Shown: in pieces, positions 21,429 to 51,480 of the stretch
Layout: every line of letters starts with the position of its first letter
Position numbering within the stretch: the first letter of the stretch is position 1
DNA from: Oscillospiraceae bacterium
GTDB lineage: Bacteria > Bacillota > Clostridia > Oscillospirales > Acutalibacteraceae
Direction of reading: 5' to 3'
NCBI GenBank assembly: GCA_902786285.1
Contig: CADABX010000011.1
Span: forward strand, 1 to 51,831
Length of the DNA: 51,831 bases
Notes under the pieces: generated by a model
What the model was told of the DNA's origin: nothing
What the model saw: the letters and a program-made list of their open reading frames with translations, nothing else
Database searches by the model: none
Made by a program: the position numbers and the translations under genes

Positions 21429-23522
21429 ATGTCTGATTTAATTATCGTTGAGTCGCCCTCCAAGGCGAAAACACTCAAAAACTATCTCGGCAAAGGCTAT
21501 GACGTCATCGCTTCCAAGGGCCATGTCCGCGATCTGCCGGCGGCCCGTCTGAGCGTGGATATCCAACACGACTTTGCGCCGAAATATGCCGTTGTCAAGG
21601 GCAAGGAAAAGCTCGTCAAGGAGCTGCAGGAAGCGGTCAAAAAGAGCGACAAGGTCTATCTTGCAACCGACCCGGACCGCGAGGGCGAAGCGATCTCGTG
21701 GCATCTGGCGTCGCTGCTGGGTCTCGATCTGTCGGAAAAAAACCGCGTGACGTTTAACGAGATCACAAAAACCGGCGTCAAAAACGGCATGGCCGCGCCG
21801 CGCAAGGTCGATCTCGATCTGGTCAACGCGCAGCAGGCACGCCGCATTCTGGACCGTCTGGTGGGCTATAAGCTGTCGCCCTTTGTCTCGCAAAAGATCC
21901 GCCGCGGTCTTTCCGCCGGCCGGGTGCAAAGCGTAGCCGTGCGCATGATCTGCGACCGGGAGGAGGAGATCCGCGCATTCGTGCCGCAGGAATATTGGAC
22001 GATCGAAGGCAAGTTTCTCGACGGCCGCCGCGTGATCAACGCGACACTGCACGAGGACGAAAACGGCAAACTCGAGATTCATAATGAGCAGGAGGCCGAC
22101 GCGCTGCTGCAGCGCATGGCGGCGTATACATTTTCCGTCAGCGCACTCAAAAAGGGCACCCGCAAGATCAACCCCTTGCCGCCGTTTATCACATCGACCA
22201 TGCAGCAGGAGGCCGCCAAAAAGCTCGGCTTCCGCACGGAGCGCACCATGCAGATCGCGCAGCAGCTGTATGAAGGCGTCGATCTCGGCAATCGCGGCGC
22301 TGTGGGTCTCATCACCTACATGCGTACCGACTCCATGCGTGTGTCAGACGAAGCGAGAAGCGCCGCTGCGGCGCTGATCTCCGCCGTGTACGGCGCACAG
22401 TATGTACCCGAAAAACCCAATGTTTATAAATCCCGCGCCAACGCACAGGACGGCCACGAAGCCATCCGTCCGTCCGATGTGAACCTCACGCCGGAATCGG
22501 TCAAGAGCTTTCTGACAAGCGAGCAGTTTAAACTCTATGATCTCATCTGGAAACGCTTTATCGCGTCGCAGATGGCTGCCGGTGTGCAAAGTACGGTCAA
22601 GCTTGACATCCGCGGCAATGCGGAAGGCGACAGCAAGCATTTCGTTCTTTTCCGCGCCAACGGCCACTCCATGAAATTCGACGGCTGCACGCGTGTGTAT
22701 GACCTCGGCGAAGGCAAGGATGCGTTGCTGCCGGTAGATCTGAAACCGGGCGATCCGCTGAAAACGCGGGAAATCAGCAAGAGCCAGCATTTCACCCAGC
22801 CGCCGGCGCGCTACAGCGAGCAGTCGCTGATCAAGGCGCTTGAAGAAAACGGCGTGGGCCGTCCGAGCACCTATGCGACAATCATCTCCACCATCGTTAA
22901 ACGCGAGTATGTCCAGCGCAAAAACAAGCAGCTGATCCCGACCGAGCTCGGCGAAGCGATCTCCAAGCTGTTGAAAGAGACCTTCCCGAAGATCGTCAAC
23001 ACCAAATTCACCGCGCAGATGGAAACCGGCCTTGACCGCGTCGGCGACGGCGAAGAGGACTATGTGGCGTTGCTGCACAGCTTCTATGACGATTTTGAAA
23101 AGACGCTCAAAAAAGTCAAGGATGACATGAAGGACGTCAAGATCCAGCTTCAGGAGGATCAGACGGACATCCCGTGCGAAAAGTGCGGGCGTATGATGGT
23201 CGTCAAGGTCGGGCGCTTCGGCAAATTCCTTGCCTGCCCGGGCTATCCCGCCTGCAAGAACACAAAGCCTTATGTGGTCGACACGGCGGCGCGCTGTCCG
23301 AAATGTGGTGGCAAGGTCGTGGAAAAAAAGAGCAAGCGCGGCTACACTTTCTTCGGCTGCGAAAAATGGCCGGAATGCGATTTCGTCACCTGGGACAAGC
23401 CGACCAAAGAAACCTGCCCCAACTGCGGCAGCGCCCTGTTTAAGGGCAAGGGCGGCATGCTTTCCTGCTTAAAGGAAGGCTGCGGCTATTCGCGCAGGGA
23501 CAAAAAGAAAAAAGAAGACTGA
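21429..23522 (+). CDS. topA: DNA topoisomerase I
   Basis: A type IA topoisomerase that relaxes negative supercoils. The 697-aa protein opens with a toprim domain (IVESPSKAKTL, and the acidic DPDREGE triad at residues 81-87). The active-site tyrosine is Y297 in LITYMRTDS. SAGRVQSVAVR and the KALEENGVGRPSTYATII motif follow. The C-terminus from about residue 583 carries three four-cysteine zinc ribbons (CEKC...C...C, CPKC...C...C, CPNC...C...C) that bind ssDNA. Length and architecture are typical of Firmicutes TopA. Confidence 0.96.
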   Translation: MSDLIIVESPSKAKTLKNYLGKGYDVIASKGHVRDLPAARLSVDIQHDFAPKYAVVKGKEKLVKELQEAVKKSDKVYLATDPDREGEAISWHLASLLGLDLSEKNRVTFNEITKTGVKNGMAAPRKVDLDLVNAQQARRILDRLVGYKLSPFVSQKIRRGLSAGRVQSVAVRMICDREEEIRAFVPQEYWTIEGKFLDGRRVINATLHEDENGKLEIHNEQEADALLQRMAAYTFSVSALKKGTRKINPLPPFITSTMQQEAAKKLGFRTERTMQIAQQLYEGVDLGNRGAVGLITYMRTDSMRVSDEARSAAAALISAVYGAQYVPEKPNVYKSRANAQDGHEAIRPSDVNLTPESVKSFLTSEQFKLYDLIWKRFIASQMAAGVQSTVKLDIRGNAEGDSKHFVLFRANGHSMKFDGCTRVYDLGEGKDALLPVDLKPGDPLKTREISKSQHFTQPPARYSEQSLIKALEENGVGRPSTYATIISTIVKREYVQRKNKQLIPTELGEAISKLLKETFPKIVNTKFTAQMETGLDRVGDGEEDYVALLHSFYDDFEKTLKKVKDDMKDVKIQLQEDQTDIPCEKCGRMMVVKVGRFGKFLACPGYPACKNTKPYVVDTAARCPKCGGKVVEKKSKRGYTFFGCEKWPECDFVTWDKPTKETCPNCGSALFKGKGGMLSCLKEGCGYSRRDKKKKED

Positions 23523-44635: not shown

Positions 44636-44651
44636 ACCGGTAAGCAGGATC

Positions 44652-44981
44652 TTTTAATTCGGAATTCGGAATGCGGAATTCGGAATGATGGTCGCGCTTT
44701 TACCGATTGTAAACCGCACATGTCAAACCGCGGCGTGAACCACTCGCCGGTAGGTACTGTGTAAAAATAAAAGCCGCCGTTTGGCGGCTTTTGTTGTTTC
44801 TGTCCGAATTCTTTCAACAGCGGGTGAGAGGTTCGATTTGTGACATTGACGAGCGGATAGAATCAAAGCGTTCTGTGTAGCCTATCTGCAATGACGCGGT
44901 GAATCGATTGCGGCCGGGCGCTGCTGTCCCGCGACCGCAATTCCGCATTCCGAATTCCGCATTCCGAATTCCGAATTAAAA
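44652..44981. repeat. 330-bp MITE-like element with perfect 36-bp terminal inverted repeats built of 7-bp units
   Basis: Positions 44652-44687 and 44946-44981 are exact reverse complements over 36 bp. Each arm reads inward TTTTAATTC and then heptads alternating GGAATTC and GGAATGC. Just inside both arms a GGTCGCG word recurs. The interior has no convincing gene; it contains a terminator-like hairpin (44769-44792). I see no clear target-site duplication. The right end abuts the exonuclease-gene terminator. No transposase is present, so mobility would need one in trans. The 366-bp gap between the flanking genes holds nothing else. Confidence 0.8.
44769..44796 (+). terminator. Terminator-like hairpin inside the 330-bp repeat element
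   Basis: A perfect 10-bp stem AAAAGCCGCC/GGCGGCTTTT with loop GTTT, then TGTTGTTT. It could end the transglutaminase/lipoprotein transcript about 130 bases after its last stop codon, or be part of the inserted element. Confidence 0.7.
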
Positions 44982-45003
44982 AAGGCGCATCTGCGCCTTT
45001 TTT
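44978..45003. terminator. Bidirectional terminator between lipoprotein and exonuclease genes
   Basis: AAAAAAGGCGCA/TGCGCCTTTTTT, a 12-bp inverted repeat with A and T tracts on both sides. It overlaps the exonuclease stop codon (minus strand) and the last four bases of the right repeat arm. Confidence 0.85.
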
Positions 45004-45790
45004 ATTTGCAGCTCCACTTGCACCCTTGATAGTTCTTTTTCTGCGTGGCGGCCTTTCTGATCCGGCGCTCCACCTTGAATTTTGTCATCTCGTTGGAGGA
45101 CGGGGAGTGCTTGAGATAGGTGCGCATCACCCAATCGGCGGCCTGGCTGTAGGAGGTGAACTCCATCTGTTTTTCGCCGCTGCGGGCCACGATCTGCCGC
45201 GACGCGTCCACCTTGGGCGGAGCGGCTTTGGGCTTGACCTTTTTCACTGTCACATATTCCGGGAACGGACAAACGTCCACTGTACCGGTTTTCACGTGTT
45301 CATAAACGAACCGAAGACTTTCGGCGTCGGCCAGCGCTTCGTGCGACACCTCGGGCAGCTCTCCGGCAAAGTATTCCACGGCGTGCTTGAGCGACAGGGT
45401 GTTGTCAATGCGAAAATATTTGCGGGCAATCATCGACGCGTCGGTGAGCTTCGAGAGAATCAGACCCAGCGCGCACTGGGCACGGAACGAGCGGATATAG
45501 CGCATGGTGCGATAGACAAACAGCCGGTCGCAGTCGCCGTAGCAAAAGAAATGCGCGGTGTGGTTGGGGTCGATCCAGTCGTAAAACGCCGAAAACGCTT
45601 CGTCCGCCGTGGGTGCTTCCTCCAGCTGTTCGCGCGTGATACCGGTCAGCTCCGTGATGAAATCGCTCATTTTGTTCATATTGTGCGGACGGATCAGAGT
45701 GGAAAAGGTGCGTCCGTTTTCGTCCACGCAGCCGACGGAGATGATCTCCATGGAATACTGCGTCGCTTCAAAGTCGATAAAATAGTGCAT
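45002..45790 (-). CDS. DEDDh-type 3'-5' exonuclease (RNase T/DnaQ fold) with C-terminal extension
   Basis: Residues 1-175 are an exonuclease domain: DFEAT with the first Asp/Glu pair (D6, E8), a central Asp in CYGDCDRLF, and HEALADAE with the distal His and Asp of the DEDDh class. KapD/ERI-like proteins of this type trim RNA or DNA 3' ends. The following ~85 residues are unusual: a Pro/Lys linker, then FTSYSQAADWVMRTYL and a basic tail ending GCKWSCK, which I do not recognise. It may bind nucleic acid. AAAGGAAGC precedes the ATG. The gene lies downstream of the DUF1508 gene on the same strand, behind a terminator. Confidence 0.83.
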   Translation of the reverse strand: MHYFIDFEATQYSMEIISVGCVDENGRTFSTLIRPHNMNKMSDFITELTGITREQLEEAPTADEAFSAFYDWIDPNHTAHFFCYGDCDRLFVYRTMRYIRSFRAQCALGLILSKLTDASMIARKYFRIDNTLSLKHAVEYFAGELPEVSHEALADAESLRFVYEHVKTGTVDVCPFPEYVTVKKVKPKAAPPKVDASRQIVARSGEKQMEFTSYSQAADWVMRTYLKHSPSSNEMTKFKVERRIRKAATQKKNYQGCKWSCK

Positions 45791-45819
45791 GGGTGCTGAT
45801 GCTTCCTTTGATTTTATAA

Positions 45820-45848
45820 TAAAAAACCGGAAGCCGAAACCTCCGGTT
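45820..45848 (-). terminator. Rho-independent terminator after the DUF1508 gene
   Basis: On the minus strand AACCGGAGG/CTTCCGGTT (9 bp, one G-U pair), loop TTTCGG, followed by TTTT. It lies between the DUF1508 stop codon and the exonuclease start. Confidence 0.82.
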
Positions 45849-45858
45849 GCATGGTGCT

Positions 45859-46227
45859 TTATTCGATTTCCTCGGTCGGGGCGTCGGGTGCGTTTTTCTT
45901 AACGGATTCGATCCCGTTCAGGCAGGAGGCCTTGGCTTTGTAACCTTCGCTGGTGGCAATCACTTCGCCGTTTCTCGCTTTCAGACGGAAACGGTATTCA
46001 CCGGCTTTGTCGAGATACACTTCAAACTTCGGGTGCTTTTCGGTTGCGAAGCCTTCCACGGTTTGGTCTTCGATCGCGCCGGCGCAGCAGGCTTTGACAG
46101 ATGCGATGCCGTTCAGGCAGCTCGCTTTGCTCGCATACACTTCGCTCGTTGCAATCACTTCGCCGTTGCCGGCCTTGAGGTCGAACTTGATGCCTGTGTT
46201 CGTCTGTTTTACGATAAATTTGCCCAT
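45859..46227 (-). CDS. DUF1508 (YegP-like) tandem-repeat protein
   Basis: The 122-aa protein consists of two copies of the ~50-residue DUF1508 unit. Each has a FxLKAxNGEVIATSExY core and a KASCLNGIxSVK helix (residues about 13-46 and 69-108). YegP-like proteins are small soluble proteins of unknown function. GAAAGGAAGG precedes the ATG at 46227. It has its own promoter and a terminator, so it is monocistronic. A short acidic tail (PDAPTEEIE) ends it. Confidence 0.92.
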   Translation of the reverse strand: MGKFIVKQTNTGIKFDLKAGNGEVIATSEVYASKASCLNGIASVKACCAGAIEDQTVEGFATEKHPKFEVYLDKAGEYRFRLKARNGEVIATSEGYKAKASCLNGIESVKKNAPDAPTEEIE

Positions 46228-46274
46228 GGGGATTCCTTCCTTTCTCCCGGCCGAAACGGCCTTATTTCCTATTT

Positions 46275-46303
46275 ATGATAGCACACGCGCGCTCTCTTGT
46301 CAA
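46275..46303 (-). promoter_or_regulatory. SigA promoter for the DUF1508 gene
   Basis: On the minus strand TTGACA (46303-46298), a 17-bp spacer and TATCAT (46280-46275), with an extended -10 TGC. It begins 8 bp downstream of the carboxypeptidase stop, leaving no space for a terminator there. Confidence 0.85.
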
Positions 46304-46310
46304 GCGCGGC

Positions 46311-47198
46311 TTAATAGGCGACGCCGATGGAATCAAGGTATTCTTCGAGGCAAAGACCCGAATTTTTGATCTTTTCGGCGTATTCCACACCCACATACCG
46401 CCAGTGCCACGGCTCGGGGATGATGCCCGTGATCGGCTGTTTTTCGGCCGTATAGCGCAAAATAAAGCCGTATTCGTGGGCGTGCTGCTGCAGCCAGGCG
46501 TATTCCTTCGTGTCCTTGAAGCTCGATTCCGTGCCGCAGATGTCCATCGCGTAGCCGAGGTTGTGTTCGCTGGTGCCGGGCGGCAAGATCACCGTTGCGG
46601 CCTTTTTGCGTGCATCGGCTTCGCTCAGATTATAATCGTGCATATACGTTTCGGTCAGATGGTTATAGTTGTTCTTCTGCCGTTCATAGGAGCGGTAGGC
46701 GGAGTAGGGCGTGAGTGTGATGCCGTCCTGCTTTGCCGCGTAGTACATCTCCTCGTAATGCGGGGCGACGCGGTAGTCGAGATATTTGCCGCAGCCGAGA
46801 ATCTCCTTGAGCTCGGGCACATACCCTTCGGGCAGCTCGCGTCCGGCGTTGACGACGATCAGATTCCAGTCGGCGCGGTTCGTGTCCACGATGATCCGCC
46901 CGGTGTCGGGGTTGACGGACGTTGTAAGCGGTTTGGTTTCGCCGGTGGTGGCGGTCTTGTCGCTTTCGGACGTGTCGCTTTCGGGCACGCTTTCCGTGGT
47001 GATGCTGTTGTCAATCGTCAGCGGCTGCTCAGTCGTGTCGTCAATCGACGCGGACGGCGCAATCGTTGTGCCCGGCGCCGAGGAATCGTTCATGGGCGCC
47101 GGCGTTTTCGGACGCAGCGCGATCACAACGGCAAGGGAGATGACAACGGCAATCGCAATCACGATCACGACTGGCAGATATTGATGTTTCTTTTTCAT
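46311..47198 (-). CDS. VanY-type D,D-carboxypeptidase, membrane-anchored
   Basis: An M15B zinc peptidase that trims terminal D-Ala from peptidoglycan precursors. The 295-aa protein has one transmembrane helix (about 6-28), a Ser/Thr/Asp-rich outer linker to about residue 105, and the catalytic domain. The zinc ligands are seen in TSEHNLGYAMDI (His and Asp) and PWHWRYVG (His, with the preceding Glu as base). SAYRSYERQ is the substrate-binding segment. The ATG at 47198 is spaced seven bases from GAAGGAGC; an upstream TTG overlaps that site. No vancomycin-resistance genes are near, so it is probably general wall metabolism. It follows the M28 gene by 30 bp. Confidence 0.88.
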   Translation of the reverse strand: MKKKHQYLPVVIVIAIAVVISLAVVIALRPKTPAPMNDSSAPGTTIAPSASIDDTTEQPLTIDNSITTESVPESDTSESDKTATTGETKPLTTSVNPDTGRIIVDTNRADWNLIVVNAGRELPEGYVPELKEILGCGKYLDYRVAPHYEEMYYAAKQDGITLTPYSAYRSYERQKNNYNHLTETYMHDYNLSEADARKKAATVILPPGTSEHNLGYAMDICGTESSFKDTKEYAWLQQHAHEYGFILRYTAEKQPITGIIPEPWHWRYVGVEYAEKIKNSGLCLEEYLDSIGVAY

Positions 47199-47228
47199 AA
47201 GGGAATGCTCCTTCAATGGGGGATATGC

Positions 47229-48479
47229 TTAATCGTAGTTTTCCTTGAGACCCTGCTCGTCAAACATAAACAGCGCGTGCAAACAGATGTCCAGCGACTT
47301 TTCGATCGTTTTCGGCACCAGGATTTCTTCGGTGTCGCGGCGCGTGTGATAGTAACGCGGGCCGGTGGGATCCATCGCGGCCAAACACGCGGCAGGTACG
47401 CCGAGCTTGGTCACCGCGGCTGCGTCGGACGCACCGAGATAGACCGAGTGATAGGGGAGATCCACACCGCAGTCGGCGCCGGCTTTTTTCATCAGCGCGC
47501 ACACACGCGGATCGTTTTTGACCGTGCCGGTCATGTCGCGCGCATAGATCGCCATATCGTCATAGTCGCGCAGCGTGTCCATGCAAAAGAACACCGTTGG
47601 CACCGCGTCAAGCTCAGCCTTGTGGGCTTTGATATACGCTTCGGCGCCGCGCAGACCGCACTCCTCGCAGCCGACCGTTGCGGCCACGACTTCGGTATTT
47701 TCAAACCGGATGTTGTTGTCCTCGAGATATTTGAGAATCGCGATCGACGTCACGGAGCCGGTCAGATTGTCGTTGGCGCCGGGCACGGGATGCTTGAAAT
47801 CGGAGAAGAACATGATGAGGATAAACGCGGGCACAAACGCCAGCTCCGCCCAGCGGAAACCGGAAAACACCGCGCCGACCTCGCCGCCGGCCGGGCCGTA
47901 GAGCGCCGTCTGGACAATGGAGATCACAAACATGTAAAGCAGACCGACGATTGCGTAGCCGCTGCCGCCGAAGAACAGCGCCTTTCCGCCCAGATGCATA
48001 AACCGCCATTCAAACGCGGAGTCCACATGGCCCGAGAAGATGATGCGCTGCTTCACTTCGCCGGTGGGCTTGCGCGTACCGATTACGTTGGCGCTCGTCT
48101 TTTTGGGGAAGAACGGGTCGAGGAATTTCCAATACATCAGAAACTCCGTGAACAAGCATAAAAACGCAACCAGCGTCAGGCACAGCGAGACGATCGGCAG
48201 ATTGAGAAACGAGAACAACACGGCCAGCAGCAGCGCAATGCCGTCGACCACGACCCACGCCATAAATGCCACGGGCGACACTTTGAACTCTTCGAGCTTG
48301 ACGTCGTCGGCGCCGGTCTTCATTTCTTCCACAAAATGCTCCTGCGCGGCGCGCTCGGCCTCACTGCCGGAACCGCGCGGGCCGATGGTCTTGCAGACCT
48401 TCTTGATTTCACGCGTGGTATAGTTCGTATACATACGCAGCGTGGACGGATAGTTTTTGACGCTTTCTTCAGCTTTCAA
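47229..48479 (-). CDS. M28-family zinc peptidase with internal transmembrane segments
   Basis: The 416-aa protein carries M28 aminopeptidase motifs: HVD in IIFSGHVDSA, Asp in GANDNLTGS, the catalytic EE in VGCEECG, Asp in FFCMDT and His in RYYHTRRD. Unlike soluble M28 enzymes it has two hydrophobic helices at about residues 70-118, and two more (about 172-190 and 213-228) lying between the first and second metal ligands. So the active site is built around a membrane-embedded body. The start is a TTG (first base 48479) with AAGGGAG eight bases upstream; no ATG lies closer than residue 16. It is probably co-transcribed with the downstream VanY-type gene. Confidence 0.82.
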   Translation of the reverse strand: MKAEESVKNYPSTLRMYTNYTTREIKKVCKTIGPRGSGSEAERAAQEHFVEEMKTGADDVKLEEFKVSPVAFMAWVVVDGIALLLAVLFSFLNLPIVSLCLTLVAFLCLFTEFLMYWKFLDPFFPKKTSANVIGTRKPTGEVKQRIIFSGHVDSAFEWRFMHLGGKALFFGGSGYAIVGLLYMFVISIVQTALYGPAGGEVGAVFSGFRWAELAFVPAFILIMFFSDFKHPVPGANDNLTGSVTSIAILKYLEDNNIRFENTEVVAATVGCEECGLRGAEAYIKAHKAELDAVPTVFFCMDTLRDYDDMAIYARDMTGTVKNDPRVCALMKKAGADCGVDLPYHSVYLGASDAAAVTKLGVPAACLAAMDPTGPRYYHTRRDTEEILVPKTIEKSLDICLHALFMFDEQGLKENYD

Positions 48480-48540
48480 AATAAAAACTCCCTTCGGGGT
48501 AAGATTAACGTGAGTGATAGACTTGCGTGGATGGTTTCAA

Positions 48541-48758
48541 TGCGGAATTCGGAATTCGGAATTCGGAATTGCGGTCGCGGGGAAACGGTGCAGAAATCTG
48601 ACACCTTGTGCCGCGGCAGAAACAATGTGCTGTTGAAACCGCGCAAATAATTGATTGACGATCTCTTGTGGCACAGGAATCACCTTGCAGGTACATTTTG
48701 GCGCATCGCCGAAGGCGGCGCCCTTCCATTCCGAATTCCGAATTCCAAATTCCGAATT
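48541..48758. repeat. Second GGAATTC-heptad inverted-array element (about 218 bp)
   Basis: The left arm (48544-48570) is three GGAATTC heptads plus GGAATT. The right arm (48728-48758) is the same unit reverse-complemented with one variant. Inside the left arm, GGAATTGCGGTCGCGGG (48565-48581) is identical over 17 bp to the reverse complement of 44928-44944 in the first element, so the two share more than the simple repeat. The 302-bp gap between the M28 and Dabb genes contains this element and a hairpin, and no gene that I can support. Confidence 0.72.
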
Positions 48759-48760
48759 AT

Positions 48761-48790
48761 GAAATCTGATTTCCCGGAAAATCAGATTTC
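48761..48790. repeat. Perfect 12-bp hairpin overlapping the Dabb stop codon
   Basis: GAAATCTGATTT/AAATCAGATTTC with a six-base loop CCCGGA. The minus-strand stop codon of the Dabb gene lies within the stem. No T tract follows, so it is a weak terminator or an mRNA 3'-end stabiliser. Confidence 0.7.
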
Positions 48791-49084
48791 ATAGTCCACG
48801 CTTGCCCGTCCGCAGCGGCACAGCGCAATATACTCGGAGATCATCTTGTGATCCGGGTGCTTGCGATAGGTGAACAGATCGTCGAGCGAATTGAACTCGC
48901 TTTCAAGCACGGCGTCATACATGCCGGGCTTGTCGTTGCAATTGAGGTGCACCTCCATCTTTTTGAGGCAGGGGATCACCTTGGGCAGCGCTTCCAGCTG
49001 TGCCTTGGCCCATTCCATGTTTTCCTGCTTGGTTTTTCCCTGGGCATATTCCTTGAATTGCCACATGACGATGTGTTTGATCAT
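48782..49084 (-). CDS. Dabb (stress-responsive alpha/beta-barrel) domain protein
   Basis: A 100-aa ferredoxin-like single-domain protein. The start MIKHIVMWQFKEYA, the central LKKMEVHLN and the closing HPDHKMISEYIA are typical of Dabb proteins, which form dimeric barrels. Some are enzymes, many have no known function. GAAAGGAG precedes the ATG at 49084. A heptad-repeat array begins only 22 bp upstream of the start, where the promoter would be expected. Confidence 0.9.
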   Translation of the reverse strand: MIKHIVMWQFKEYAQGKTKQENMEWAKAQLEALPKVIPCLKKMEVHLNCNDKPGMYDAVLESEFNSLDDLFTYRKHPDHKMISEYIALCRCGRASVDYEI

Positions 49085-49105
49085 TGGTATTTTCTCCTTT
49101 CAATA

Positions 49106-49204
49106 GGGACAAGGGACTAGCGACTAGGGACTAGGGACTAGTCAAGGATTGAATCGAACCACTGATGCCTGATCGCTGGTCGCTGGTCGCTTGTCGCTTG
49201 TCCC
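49106..49204. repeat. Facing arrays of five GGGACTA-type heptads (inverted pair)
   Basis: Left array 49106-49140: GGGACAA, GGGACTA, GCGACTA, GGGACTA, GGGACTA with no interruption. Right array 49170-49204 read on the minus strand: GGGACAA, GCGACAA, GCGACCA, GCGACCA, GCGATCA. The 29-bp spacer is unremarkable. The arms could fold into a long imperfect stem. The array fills the whole gap between the Dabb and YbaK-domain genes. Confidence 0.85.
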
Positions 49205-49211
49205 TCGTTCC

Positions 49212-49706
49212 TTACATCTCAATAAAATACACGTCGTTTCCCATCGCCTTGAGAAACCGCATCAGACCGTCGAACTCCAGCCAGACGAACGAGGTGTTCA
49301 CATTCGGGTGAAAACCGAGCAGGCCTTTATGCGTTTTGAAATCCTTGTCCAGCACGACCACAACGTCGTGGTCATCGTCATTGACAACGCCAAACGGAGA
49401 TACCGCGCCGGGCAGCAGACCGAGCTGCTTTTGCAGCCGTTCGTCCGAACCGAAGGATAGCCGGCTGCAGCCGAGCTGGGCGCGGATACCGTTTTGGATG
49501 TCGGGGTGCTTGTTTTTCATCATCGACACCACGTAGTGCGTTTTGCCGTTGGCGTTGCGTAAAAAGAGGTTTTTGCAAACTTCACCTGCGGTGAACACGC
49601 CGAGCGCGTCCATGTCCTCGATGGTGTGCACCGGGGGATGATCGATAACGCTGTATACGATGCCGAGGCGGTCGAGCGTGTCGAGGACTTTTTGTCTGTT
49701 ATCCAT
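49212..49706 (-). CDS. YbaK/ProX-type prolyl-tRNA editing domain protein
   Basis: The 164-aa protein is a stand-alone copy of the editing domain inserted in bacterial prolyl-tRNA synthetase (YbaK/ProXp/PrdX group), which hydrolyses mischarged Ala- or Cys-tRNAs. Landmarks are HPPVHTIEDMD, CKNLFLRNANGKTHYVV with the conserved lysine, GSDERLQKQLGLLPGAVSPFG and LGFHPNVNTSFVWL. The ATG at 49706 is spaced six bases from GAAGGTG; an upstream in-frame GTG overlaps that site. Which tRNA it edits cannot be read from sequence. Confidence 0.9.
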   Translation of the reverse strand: MDNRQKVLDTLDRLGIVYSVIDHPPVHTIEDMDALGVFTAGEVCKNLFLRNANGKTHYVVSMMKNKHPDIQNGIRAQLGCSRLSFGSDERLQKQLGLLPGAVSPFGVVNDDDHDVVVVLDKDFKTHKGLLGFHPNVNTSFVWLEFDGLMRFLKAMGNDVYFIEM

Positions 49707-49724
49707 GGGAATCACCTTCGTTCA

Positions 49725-49782
49725 GGGATTAAGGGACTAGGGGCTAAGGAATTAAGAATTATGAATTAAGAATTGATAATTG
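49725..49782. repeat. Degenerate heptad array drifting from GGGACTA to GAATTA units
   Basis: Reading + strand: GGGATTA, A, GGGACTA, GGGGCTA, A, GGAATTA, A, GAATTAT, GAATTAA, GAATTGA. The seven-base period holds with single-base slips. It lies directly upstream of the YbaK-domain gene start region and runs into the next element. Confidence 0.7.
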
Positions 49783-49854
49783 TAGCGGCAGCCCCGCGGG
49801 CTGCTATGGAACTTCACCTTGGCACCCAGTCGGCCACGGGCCGACCGCTACAAT
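49779..49854. repeat. 76-bp three-hairpin palindromic element
   Basis: The outer arms ATTGTAGCGG (49779-49788) and CCGCTACAAT (49845-49854) are exact reverse complements. Two perfect inner hairpins lie between them: GCAGCCC/GGGCTGC with loop CGC (49788-49804) and TCGGCC/GGCCGA with loop ACG (49830-49844). The whole can fold as a three-way junction, like a small REP/MITE-type unit. No coding potential. Confidence 0.78.
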
Positions 49855-49860
49855 AAAAGA

Positions 49861-49911
49861 TCACTATCCACTATGCACTGTGCACTATGCACTGCGCGCC
49901 GCGCGGCGCGC
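49861..49911. repeat. GCACTAT-type heptad array plus 18-bp GC palindrome
   Basis: Five seamless heptads TCACTAT, CCACTAT, GCACTGT, GCACTAT, GCACTGC (49861-49895) run into the perfect palindrome GCGCGCCGCGCGGCGCGC (49894-49911), which ends three bases before the stop codon of the DUF5640-type gene on the minus strand. The palindrome could form a hairpin at the end of that gene's transcript, without a T tract. Confidence 0.78.
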
Positions 49912-49913
49912 GC

Positions 49914-51119: not shown

Positions 51120-51240
51120 TTATTCGGACACCGGTTCGCTCGCGTTGTCGGTCGCGGGGGCGGTGTCGGATTCGACGACGCGGGTCATCGTGTAGGAAAG
51201 GCCGGTTTCGTGATTCAGGCGCAGGATGTCGCCGTCCACG
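51120..51240 (-). pseudogene. 3' end of a truncated host-like gene (unrecognised)
   Basis: Read on the minus strand the last ~40 codons encode VDGDILRLNHETGLSYTMTR, then an acidic Ser/Ala/Pro/Thr-rich tail, with CTG, CGC and ACC codons like the surrounding genes. Upstream, near 51229-51245, this frame enters sequence that is better explained as recombinase coding on the other strand. The gene has therefore lost its 5' part at that junction. I do not recognise the product. The exact break is uncertain by about 20 bp. Confidence 0.5.
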
Positions 51241-51480
51241 GGGAGGCACATGTACGGCAGGTATATGAGGTCGCACCCAGAGCTGCCGCAGGTGACGCTC
51301 GAGAACATGAGGCACTCGTTCGCGACGGCGTGCCTCCATGCAGGGATGAACGTGGAGGACGTGTCCAAGATGCTCGGTCACTCCGACATCAACACGACGT
51401 TCAGGCGCTACGTGAAGCCCGACTTGGAGGACATGCGGGTCGCGTTCCGAAAGATTCCTTGGTCACATGAGGACGAATAA
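51226..51480 (+). pseudogene. C-terminal fragment of a tyrosine recombinase/phage-type integrase
   Basis: The 84-residue frame holds the end of an integrase catalytic domain: MRHSFAT with the HxxR-type block (His-Ser in place of the more common HT), LGHSDINTTFRRYV with the third histidine and nucleophile tyrosine. The first catalytic arginine, the core-binding and arm-binding domains are missing, so it cannot be active as seen. Arginines are largely AGG (GGG AGG, GGC AGG, ATG AGG), unlike the CGC/CGT of the host genes, which indicates a different source. No ribosome binding site precedes ATG 51226; the true protein was longer. Confidence 0.75.

Follow-up and report, generated by a model that had tools for sequence, protein, structure and literature searches.

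Seven-base tandem arrays in an Acutalibacteraceae contig are ends of multicopy elements, probably a family of small mobile elements whose larger members encode an S23 protein

We analysed a 51,831-nt stretch (the window) of contig CADABX010000011.1 from an Oscillospiraceae bacterium (assembly GCA_902786285.1), in which several gaps between protein genes carry tandem arrays of seven-base units. Elements with such arrays at their ends can contain an S23 gene, encoding the four-helix-bundle protein also called 23S ribosomal RNA (rRNA) intervening-sequence protein (IVP). Tandem Repeats Finder returned eight period-7 arrays between 44.6 and 49.9 kb with scores within 45–64 (44656–44686, 44939–44977, 48539–48570, 48728–48758, 49104–49141, 49169–49202, 49749–49774 and 49862–49893), plus a ninth scoring 33. 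An earlier note, made from the sequence alone, had placed such arrays in five gaps and reported none in the first 42 kb; the arrays are real, but the eight main ones occupy four gaps, two in each, and the sole period-7 row in the first 42 kb was AAAAAGA at 23502, with 2.1 copies. The same note had treated them as independent, free-standing repeats of different units. Instead, they are inverted element ends: in three of the four gaps the two arrays are reverse complements (31–40 nt, 78–100% match), so that some 'different' units are the two strands of one unit. The three pairs enclose elements about 110–330 bp long (E1–E3); the fourth gap holds E4. The features are:

44652–44687, plus strand: E1 left arm, AATTCGG/AATGCGG heptads with five tetramers (repeat detection and inverted-pair search)
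44688–44938: E1 interior, S23 gene absent; GGTCGCG-type start at both ends, as in other copies
44939–44981, minus strand: E1 right arm, which mirrors the left arm on the other strand, without mismatch over the 36 nt at 44946–44981
48539–48570, plus strand: E2 left arm, AATTCGG heptads (repeat detection, inverted pair)
48571–48727: E2 interior, S23 gene absent
48728–48758, minus strand: E2 right arm (repeat detection, inverted pair)
48758–48793: hairpin adjoining E2, its gene-side arm being the end of the neighbouring gene including the stop codon (by eye)
49105–49144, plus strand: E3 left arm, GGGACTA/GCGACTA heptads
49162–49212, minus strand: E3 right arm, TGGTCGC/TTGTCGC heptads, about 20 nt from the left arm
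49725–49748, plus strand: E4, imperfect GGGATTA/GGGACTA heptads
49749–49782, plus strand: E4, GAATTAA array with units like those flanking clade-1 S23 genes
49779–49854: separate inverted repeat inside E4, ATTGTAGCGGCAGCC..CCGCTACAAT (= ATTGTAGCGGCAGCCCCGCGG..CCACGGGCCGACCGCTACAAT), probably another repeat family
49862–49893, minus strand: E4 right arm, CACTATG heptads; genus relative G424 also has the complementary left arm (GTGCATA units), which is missing here
49894–49913: GC-rich period-7 array (Tandem Repeats Finder score 33)

The arms pair at 44652–44687 with 44946–44981 in E1 (100% complementary), 48539–48569 with 48728–48758 in E2 (94%) and 49105–49144 with 49166–49205 in E3 (78%). Predicted RNA folds of these three gaps were far stronger than those of shuffled sequence (z = −10.6 for E1, computed over 44640–45010; −6.6 and −6.5 for E2 and E3), whereas the E4 gap (z = −1.9) had no such better-than-shuffle stem. 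Complementary ends capable of a long stem, which characterize S23/IVP elements, the intervening sequences (IVS), are thus present in E1–E3 and not in E4. Four members without an S23 gene lie in the window, E1–E3 as complete inverted pairs and E4 as a composite. A profile search found no match to PF05635 (23S_rRNA_IVP) on the contig. Rfam at gathering thresholds gave no match in the window, hence the elements here are not within 23S rRNA, and a tRNA search of the window found nothing.

In the whole genome, GGAATTCGGAATTCGGAAT with at most one mismatch had 71 forward and 67 reverse matches (138, overlapping registers of one array each being counted) against 0 for the reversed control. The window and 20 further stretches of the genome (434.5 kb of 2.39 Mb; 12 of the 20 hold AATTCGG arrays, picked on contigs with matches, and eight hold none) contained 47 period-7 arrays, against 2, 4, 1, 0, 2 and 2 of periods 6, 8, 9, 10, 11 and 12, the excess over periods 6, 8 and 9 that had been suggested as a check. 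The AATTCGG copies examined were mostly inverted pairs of about 220–390 bp, many with one end of GCGGTCGCGG type and the other of TTTGGCGCATCGCCGCAGGCGGCGCC type, and several had interiors in common, one of these copies carrying S23. In 59 AATTCGG arrays with at least two tetramers (AATT/AATG-like, with three-base spacers), the number of tetramers was five in 35, two in 16, three in four, four in three and six in one. The window elements are short, non-coding and multicopy with inverted ends, as are miniature inverted-repeat transposable elements (MITEs), and appear to share their ends with a larger, gene-carrying copy; they differ from MITEs in that the ends are iterated heptads and in that no transposase was identified. 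With paired arms, and five tetramers as the prevailing number, they do not resemble free-standing microsatellites of unfixed size. The window arrays are the ends of multicopy MITE-like elements. At one AATTCGG locus (L048 11238–11520), the left arm is AATTCGG and the right arm consists of period-8 CATTTCTT units, one arm having apparently been exchanged.

An AATTCGG-type copy at C2:121892–122439 in the same genome contains a 118-amino-acid open reading frame (ORF) that matches PF05635 at 2.8e-30 and the solved protein 2rld at 8e-39. The end of the E2 interior with its arm (48697–48758, 62 bp) is 92% identical to one end of an S23-carrying element in G424. The genome has three intact S23 genes, two of them between heptad arms: the C2 copy, and a second flanked by other heptads (TAGC and CAGC tetramers). 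The third adjoins short hairpins and is without heptads; runs of short hairpins, with heptads absent, occur next to an S23 gene and the remnant of one at L053 1800–2020 and L054 1270–1510, and those at L053 are linked by GAAAT-like words. The solved S23 relatives 2rld, a Bacteroides protein, and 2gsc, from Xanthomonas (XCC0516), have five chains each; accessible sections of PMC4990558 state that the Xanthomonas protein is a homopentamer and describe S23/IVP proteins as without known function.

The association extends across bacteria. PF05635 occurred in 32 of 34 genomes of the genus, 73 of 398 drawn from the window's phylum and 57 of 274 from the class to which a Deefgea genome belongs. For 80 named S23 loci, the best 80 of 584 confirmed candidates among the matches listed and wide in phylum range, we searched flanks of about 200 bp (two of 160 were too short and excluded): 105 of 158 contained a tandem array, of period 7 in 87. 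The corresponding numbers were 6 of 790 (2) for shuffled flanks, 67 of 1,207 (40) for blocks more than 700 bp from S23, and 54 of 385 (35) for regions flanking other ORFs on these records, which may include other such elements. Loci from genome searches were the best-scoring, up to 30 per search, with weaker S23 relatives under-represented; after exclusion of loci shorter than 3,200 bp (28 of 29, 23 of 29 and 29 of 30 used), an array lay on at least one side at 21 of 28 own-phylum loci, 19 of 23 Deefgea-class loci and 24 of 29 copies from nine named genomes. For full-length S23 loci of the genus (six of 29 left out of the flank count) the figure was 22 of 23, with arrays on both sides in 21. 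Overall, at least one side held an array for 160 of 196 distinct S23 genes, and both sides did for 104 (168 and 109 of 205 before removal of nine genes fetched twice).

At those 205 loci, nine S23 genes being counted twice, 277 arrays had period 7 in 248, 8 in 20, 9 in four, 10 in two, 11 in two and 12 in one; examples of arms with other periods are L062, L082, L127, L168 and L169 (8, 11, 10, 9 and 9). The earlier note had proposed one mechanism generating heptads rather than the spread of one sequence. The first part stands, in that unrelated heptads accompany S23 genes in many phyla; the second does not hold within this genome, where AATTCGG itself has spread to dozens of places. The note's comparison with cyanobacterial heptads proved apt: in Sphaerospermopsis and Trichormus, S23 copies are flanked by heptad arms. 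In Azospirillum the S23 gene lies inside the 23S rRNA gene, again with heptad arms, the left array being scored as period 14. Unit runs with exact ends peaked at four over all S23 loci (110 of 248), followed by five (65) and reaching 35; under a different counting rule the 80 named loci peaked at five (38 of 87), and in both distributions the detector censors short arrays. An exact five units everywhere is ruled out by the run counts. Strict same-strand insertion was also discarded: neighbours on the same strand made up 58 of 73 upstream and 59 of 71 downstream, only a mild rise over the background of 134 of 187. The related four-helix-bundle protein Avd of diversity-generating retroelements, encountered among tblastn matches, differs in that it adjoins a reverse transcriptase and lacks heptad arms: at six Avd loci (12 flanks; L089 and L408 encode the same Avd protein) there was no period-7 array, and a single flank carried an array of period 12.

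The two arms of a locus match each other, and the heptad word follows the S23 clade. The left flank against the reverse-complemented right flank scored at least 24 at 59 of 77 loci, compared with 5 of 231 cross-locus pairs and 10 of 77 loci with flanks in direct orientation. Across 145 distinct S23 proteins with a period-7 arm, the mean cosine of heptad 4-mers rose with S23 identity from 0.07 (<25%) through 0.14 (45–55%) to 0.40 (65–80%); the Mantel correlation between heptad and protein was 0.27, reached by 0 of 2,000 permutations, and 0.20 for pairs below 60% identity (0 of 1,000). S23 clusters had distinct cores, AG (n = 103; A 0.79, G 0.87), xAAT/xAGT (n = 25; A 0.93, T 0.91) and AGT (n = 15; A 0.77, G 0.96, T 0.77), all exceeding the highest of 20 column-permuted nulls. 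Judged by eye, GGAATTC and GAATTAA in the window are of the xAAT/xAGT type, GGGACTA and AGTGCAT of the AG type. Column identity was 0.95 in the tetramer and 0.77 in the spacer, a comparison biased by the phase having been picked to maximize the tetramer value. The tracking of S23 clade by heptad sequence fits recognition of the arms by S23; their inward G-rich polarity is compatible with DNA and RNA recognition alike and does not separate the two.

Empty and altered sites were seen in relatives. The genus genomes G429 and G415 are collinear with 47.2–49.3 kb and are without E2 and E3, the gaps at the two sites measuring 53 and 13 bp in G429 and 42 and 12 bp in G415, against 307 and 123 bp in the window. 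G429 is also without E4 (gap 54 bp versus 220 bp) and has a single GGGACTA there. Copy number varies between genomes, as the earlier note had anticipated: by eye, E3 has five left and five to six right units in the window and eight and eight in G424. In G424, E4 is a GTGCATA/CACTATG pair. The site equivalent to C2:121892 carries a solo left arm in G424, a solo right arm in G425, AATTCGG followed by GGGAATA-type heptads in G427 and G408, a GTTAGCA element in G415 whose interior has the same GGCGCATCGCCGCAGGCGGCGCC hairpin, and AGATGTT heptads in G405. At C3:16357, G424 has AGTCAAC heptads and G408 others, and G415 and G405 had no heptads within the 240 bp examined. The same site thus carries different heptads in different species.

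Hairpins abut some arms. A hairpin scoring at least 8 adjoined 13 of 44 AATTCGG arms, compared with 42 of 880 random positions, which were largely coding; for the E2 arm, counted among the 13, the score was taken at a wrong boundary, and the true hairpin sits one unit further out. By eye, several of these hairpins are built from the final codons and the stop of the adjacent gene together with their reverse complement (window 48758–48793, L041, L042 and L048, and relatives L345, L355, L356 and L375), and the stem varies between species along with the gene end. The E2-site hairpin is not present at the empty sites of G429 and G415, and at the empty C3 site of G415 the hairpin is also absent; G425 (C2) and G408 (C3) have heptads and lack the hairpin. 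One reading is that gene-end hairpins may arise by fold-back synthesis during insertion; another is that they are co-opted terminators. As a general feature of S23 loci the hairpin was rejected (score at least 8 at 4 of 245 arms versus 5 of 1,922 random positions, all four from this genus).

We consider it probable that the arrays are terminal inverted repeats of a family of small mobile elements, of which the larger members encode S23. An S23 pentamer would bind the array at each end, with roughly one conserved tetramer per subunit at seven-base steps, as the five tetramers and three-base spacers of the AATTCGG family suggest. It would pair the two ends, whether these are DNA or form the stem of a transcript, and the paired ends would be mobilized by a further enzyme, in cis for S23-bearing copies and in trans for S23-less ones. 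Recognition would rely on the spacing and a short core (AG, AAT or AGT), not on a fixed word, which would let the heptad drift with period and arm match retained. TRAP is a ring protein that binds triplets; a ring protein with one repeat per subunit would resemble it in mechanism, not in family. More tentatively, and with less confidence than an even chance would warrant, S23 pentamers may bind the ends of mobile elements that form a class spread throughout bacteria, with drifting, iterated ends read by spacing; rRNA IVS would be one habitat of this class, its S23-less offspring would explain the heptanucleotide excess, and its insertion in this genus would copy the neighbouring gene end into a fold-back hairpin.

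Several observations weigh against this proposal. S23 binding and element movement are both inferred from sequence, and the correlation between protein and motif could come from co-inheritance: S23 identity shows a weak correlation with distant flank sequence too (r = 0.13), although in a partial test controlling for that sequence the heptad correlation stayed at 0.27 (0 of 1,000 permutations). No array was found at 36 of 196 distinct S23 genes, 29 of 277 arrays have periods of 8–12, and the match of five units to a pentamer is loose across S23 loci. Away from S23 genes, five arrays occurred in 640 kb (in three of eight S23-positive genomes), compared with 0 in 477 kb of ten S23-negative genomes, so that the idea of S23-positive genomes being full of heptads was borne out weakly. 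No target-site duplication was visible beside the arms on inspection by eye, a possible further difference from MITEs. S23 is not known to contain a catalytic domain. Finally, the Xanthomonas heptamers were generally not found with mobile elements (PMC4692102, accessible sections).

The lack of a known catalytic domain would also suit a model, unlikely though deserving attention, in which an unrelated enzyme moves the element and S23 is cargo or a regulator binding the arms in its own mRNA. The 138 arm matches against three intact S23 genes, and a 5′ arm immediately upstream of the S23 gene, in leader position, are in its favour, but arms and S23 co-occur in many phyla, the heptad core tracks the S23 clade, and arrays within 200 bp of the S23 match leave little space for another gene. 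Less probable still is that the arms are kept solely as a double-stranded RNA stem, with any complementary arms sufficing and the seven-base step coming from repeat expansion. The strong stems of E1–E3, the change in E3 unit number on both arms in a relative, the Azospirillum gene within 23S rRNA, and the Coxiella IVS, with its stem and RNase III cleavage (PMC4990558, accessible sections), agree with it; a stem, however, needs neither a seven-base period nor clade-specific cores.

Simple sequence repeats made by polymerase slippage, with a polymerase favouring period 7, we regard as very improbable, although the bacterial heptamer excess has been ascribed to slippage (PMC4692102, accessible sections) and some arrays are tens of units long. 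Inverted pairing, defined interiors, empty sites and the S23 association contradict slippage as the sole cause, and the AATTCGG tetramer count peaks at five; slippage may still alter copy number. The chance of an assembly or binning artefact is close to nil: the genome from which the window comes is 90% complete and in 67 contigs, but arrays are spread over many of these contigs, and they occur in 16 of the 34 genomes of the genus (this one included) and beside S23 genes of named isolates. Neither an ordinary period distribution nor confinement to this contig, the outcomes that by the earlier note's reckoning would have spoken against its claim, was found.

Among the papers found, heptads beside S23 are described once, for the Coxiella IVS, where repeats (GACAGAT) of strain-variable number lie upstream of S23p (PMC4990558, accessible sections). 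Compared with the Coxiella burnetii-type 23S rRNA IVS with its S23p ORF, the present elements are located between protein genes, S23 is missing from many of them, they are multicopy in the genome and their heptad word changes from locus to locus. Intergenic heptamers are also known from Xanthomonas (GGGAATC) and Nostoc (GGGGATT); those of Xanthomonas mostly have four units with the first four bases conserved, occur in 70 and 75 convergent close pairs, a further likeness to the arrays here, and were studied as G-quadruplex formers, with S23 unmentioned in the accessible sections (PMC4692102). Those sections note heptameric repeats as over-represented in bacteria since 2007, citing earlier work, and detailed literature on them as unavailable. 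Among the 274 genomes of the Deefgea-class sample, 0 had an exact three-unit match to GGGAATC. Cyanobacterial short tandemly repeated repetitive (STRR) sequences are intergenic seven-base tandem repeats. They resemble the arrays here in being seven-base repeats between genes, as do the TAACTGA direct repeats of Beggiatoaceae, which lie near start codons and at which a post-transcriptional regulator is proposed to act; the paper describing them nowhere uses the words S23, intervening or four helix (PMC4679880). A general heptad–S23 link was not found among the leading matches in open PubMed Central, subscription papers and bioRxiv being mostly outside it, and in the accessible parts of the literature found, the Xanthomonas, Nostoc and Beggiatoaceae heptads are not tied to S23.

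In that literature the heptamer excess has no settled cause, and S23 has no known function; linking them gives both a testable role, in which a ring protein would recognize a repeat through its spacing. Because S23-flanking heptad ends occur in many bacterial groups, they offer an explanation for the long-noticed excess of seven-base repeats. If the proposal is true, many genes annotated 'four helix bundle protein' would mark mobile elements, and rRNA fragmentation by IVS would be a special case.

Some S23 loci have unusual settings. A Picosynechococcus plasmid gene (L085 1983–2339) lies between cas10 and cmr3 in a type III-B CRISPR operon, with imperfect arrays of which the single detected side has period 8, and the Riemerella locus adjoins sufB. 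A very long one-sided array, 388 bp of TCTCCTN-like units, stands beside the S23 gene at L069 (1832–2219). In the window itself, near the contig end, an ORF at 51226–51480 contains ENMRHSFATACLHAGMNVEDVSKMLGHSDINTTFRRYV and resembles the C-terminal end of a tyrosine recombinase.

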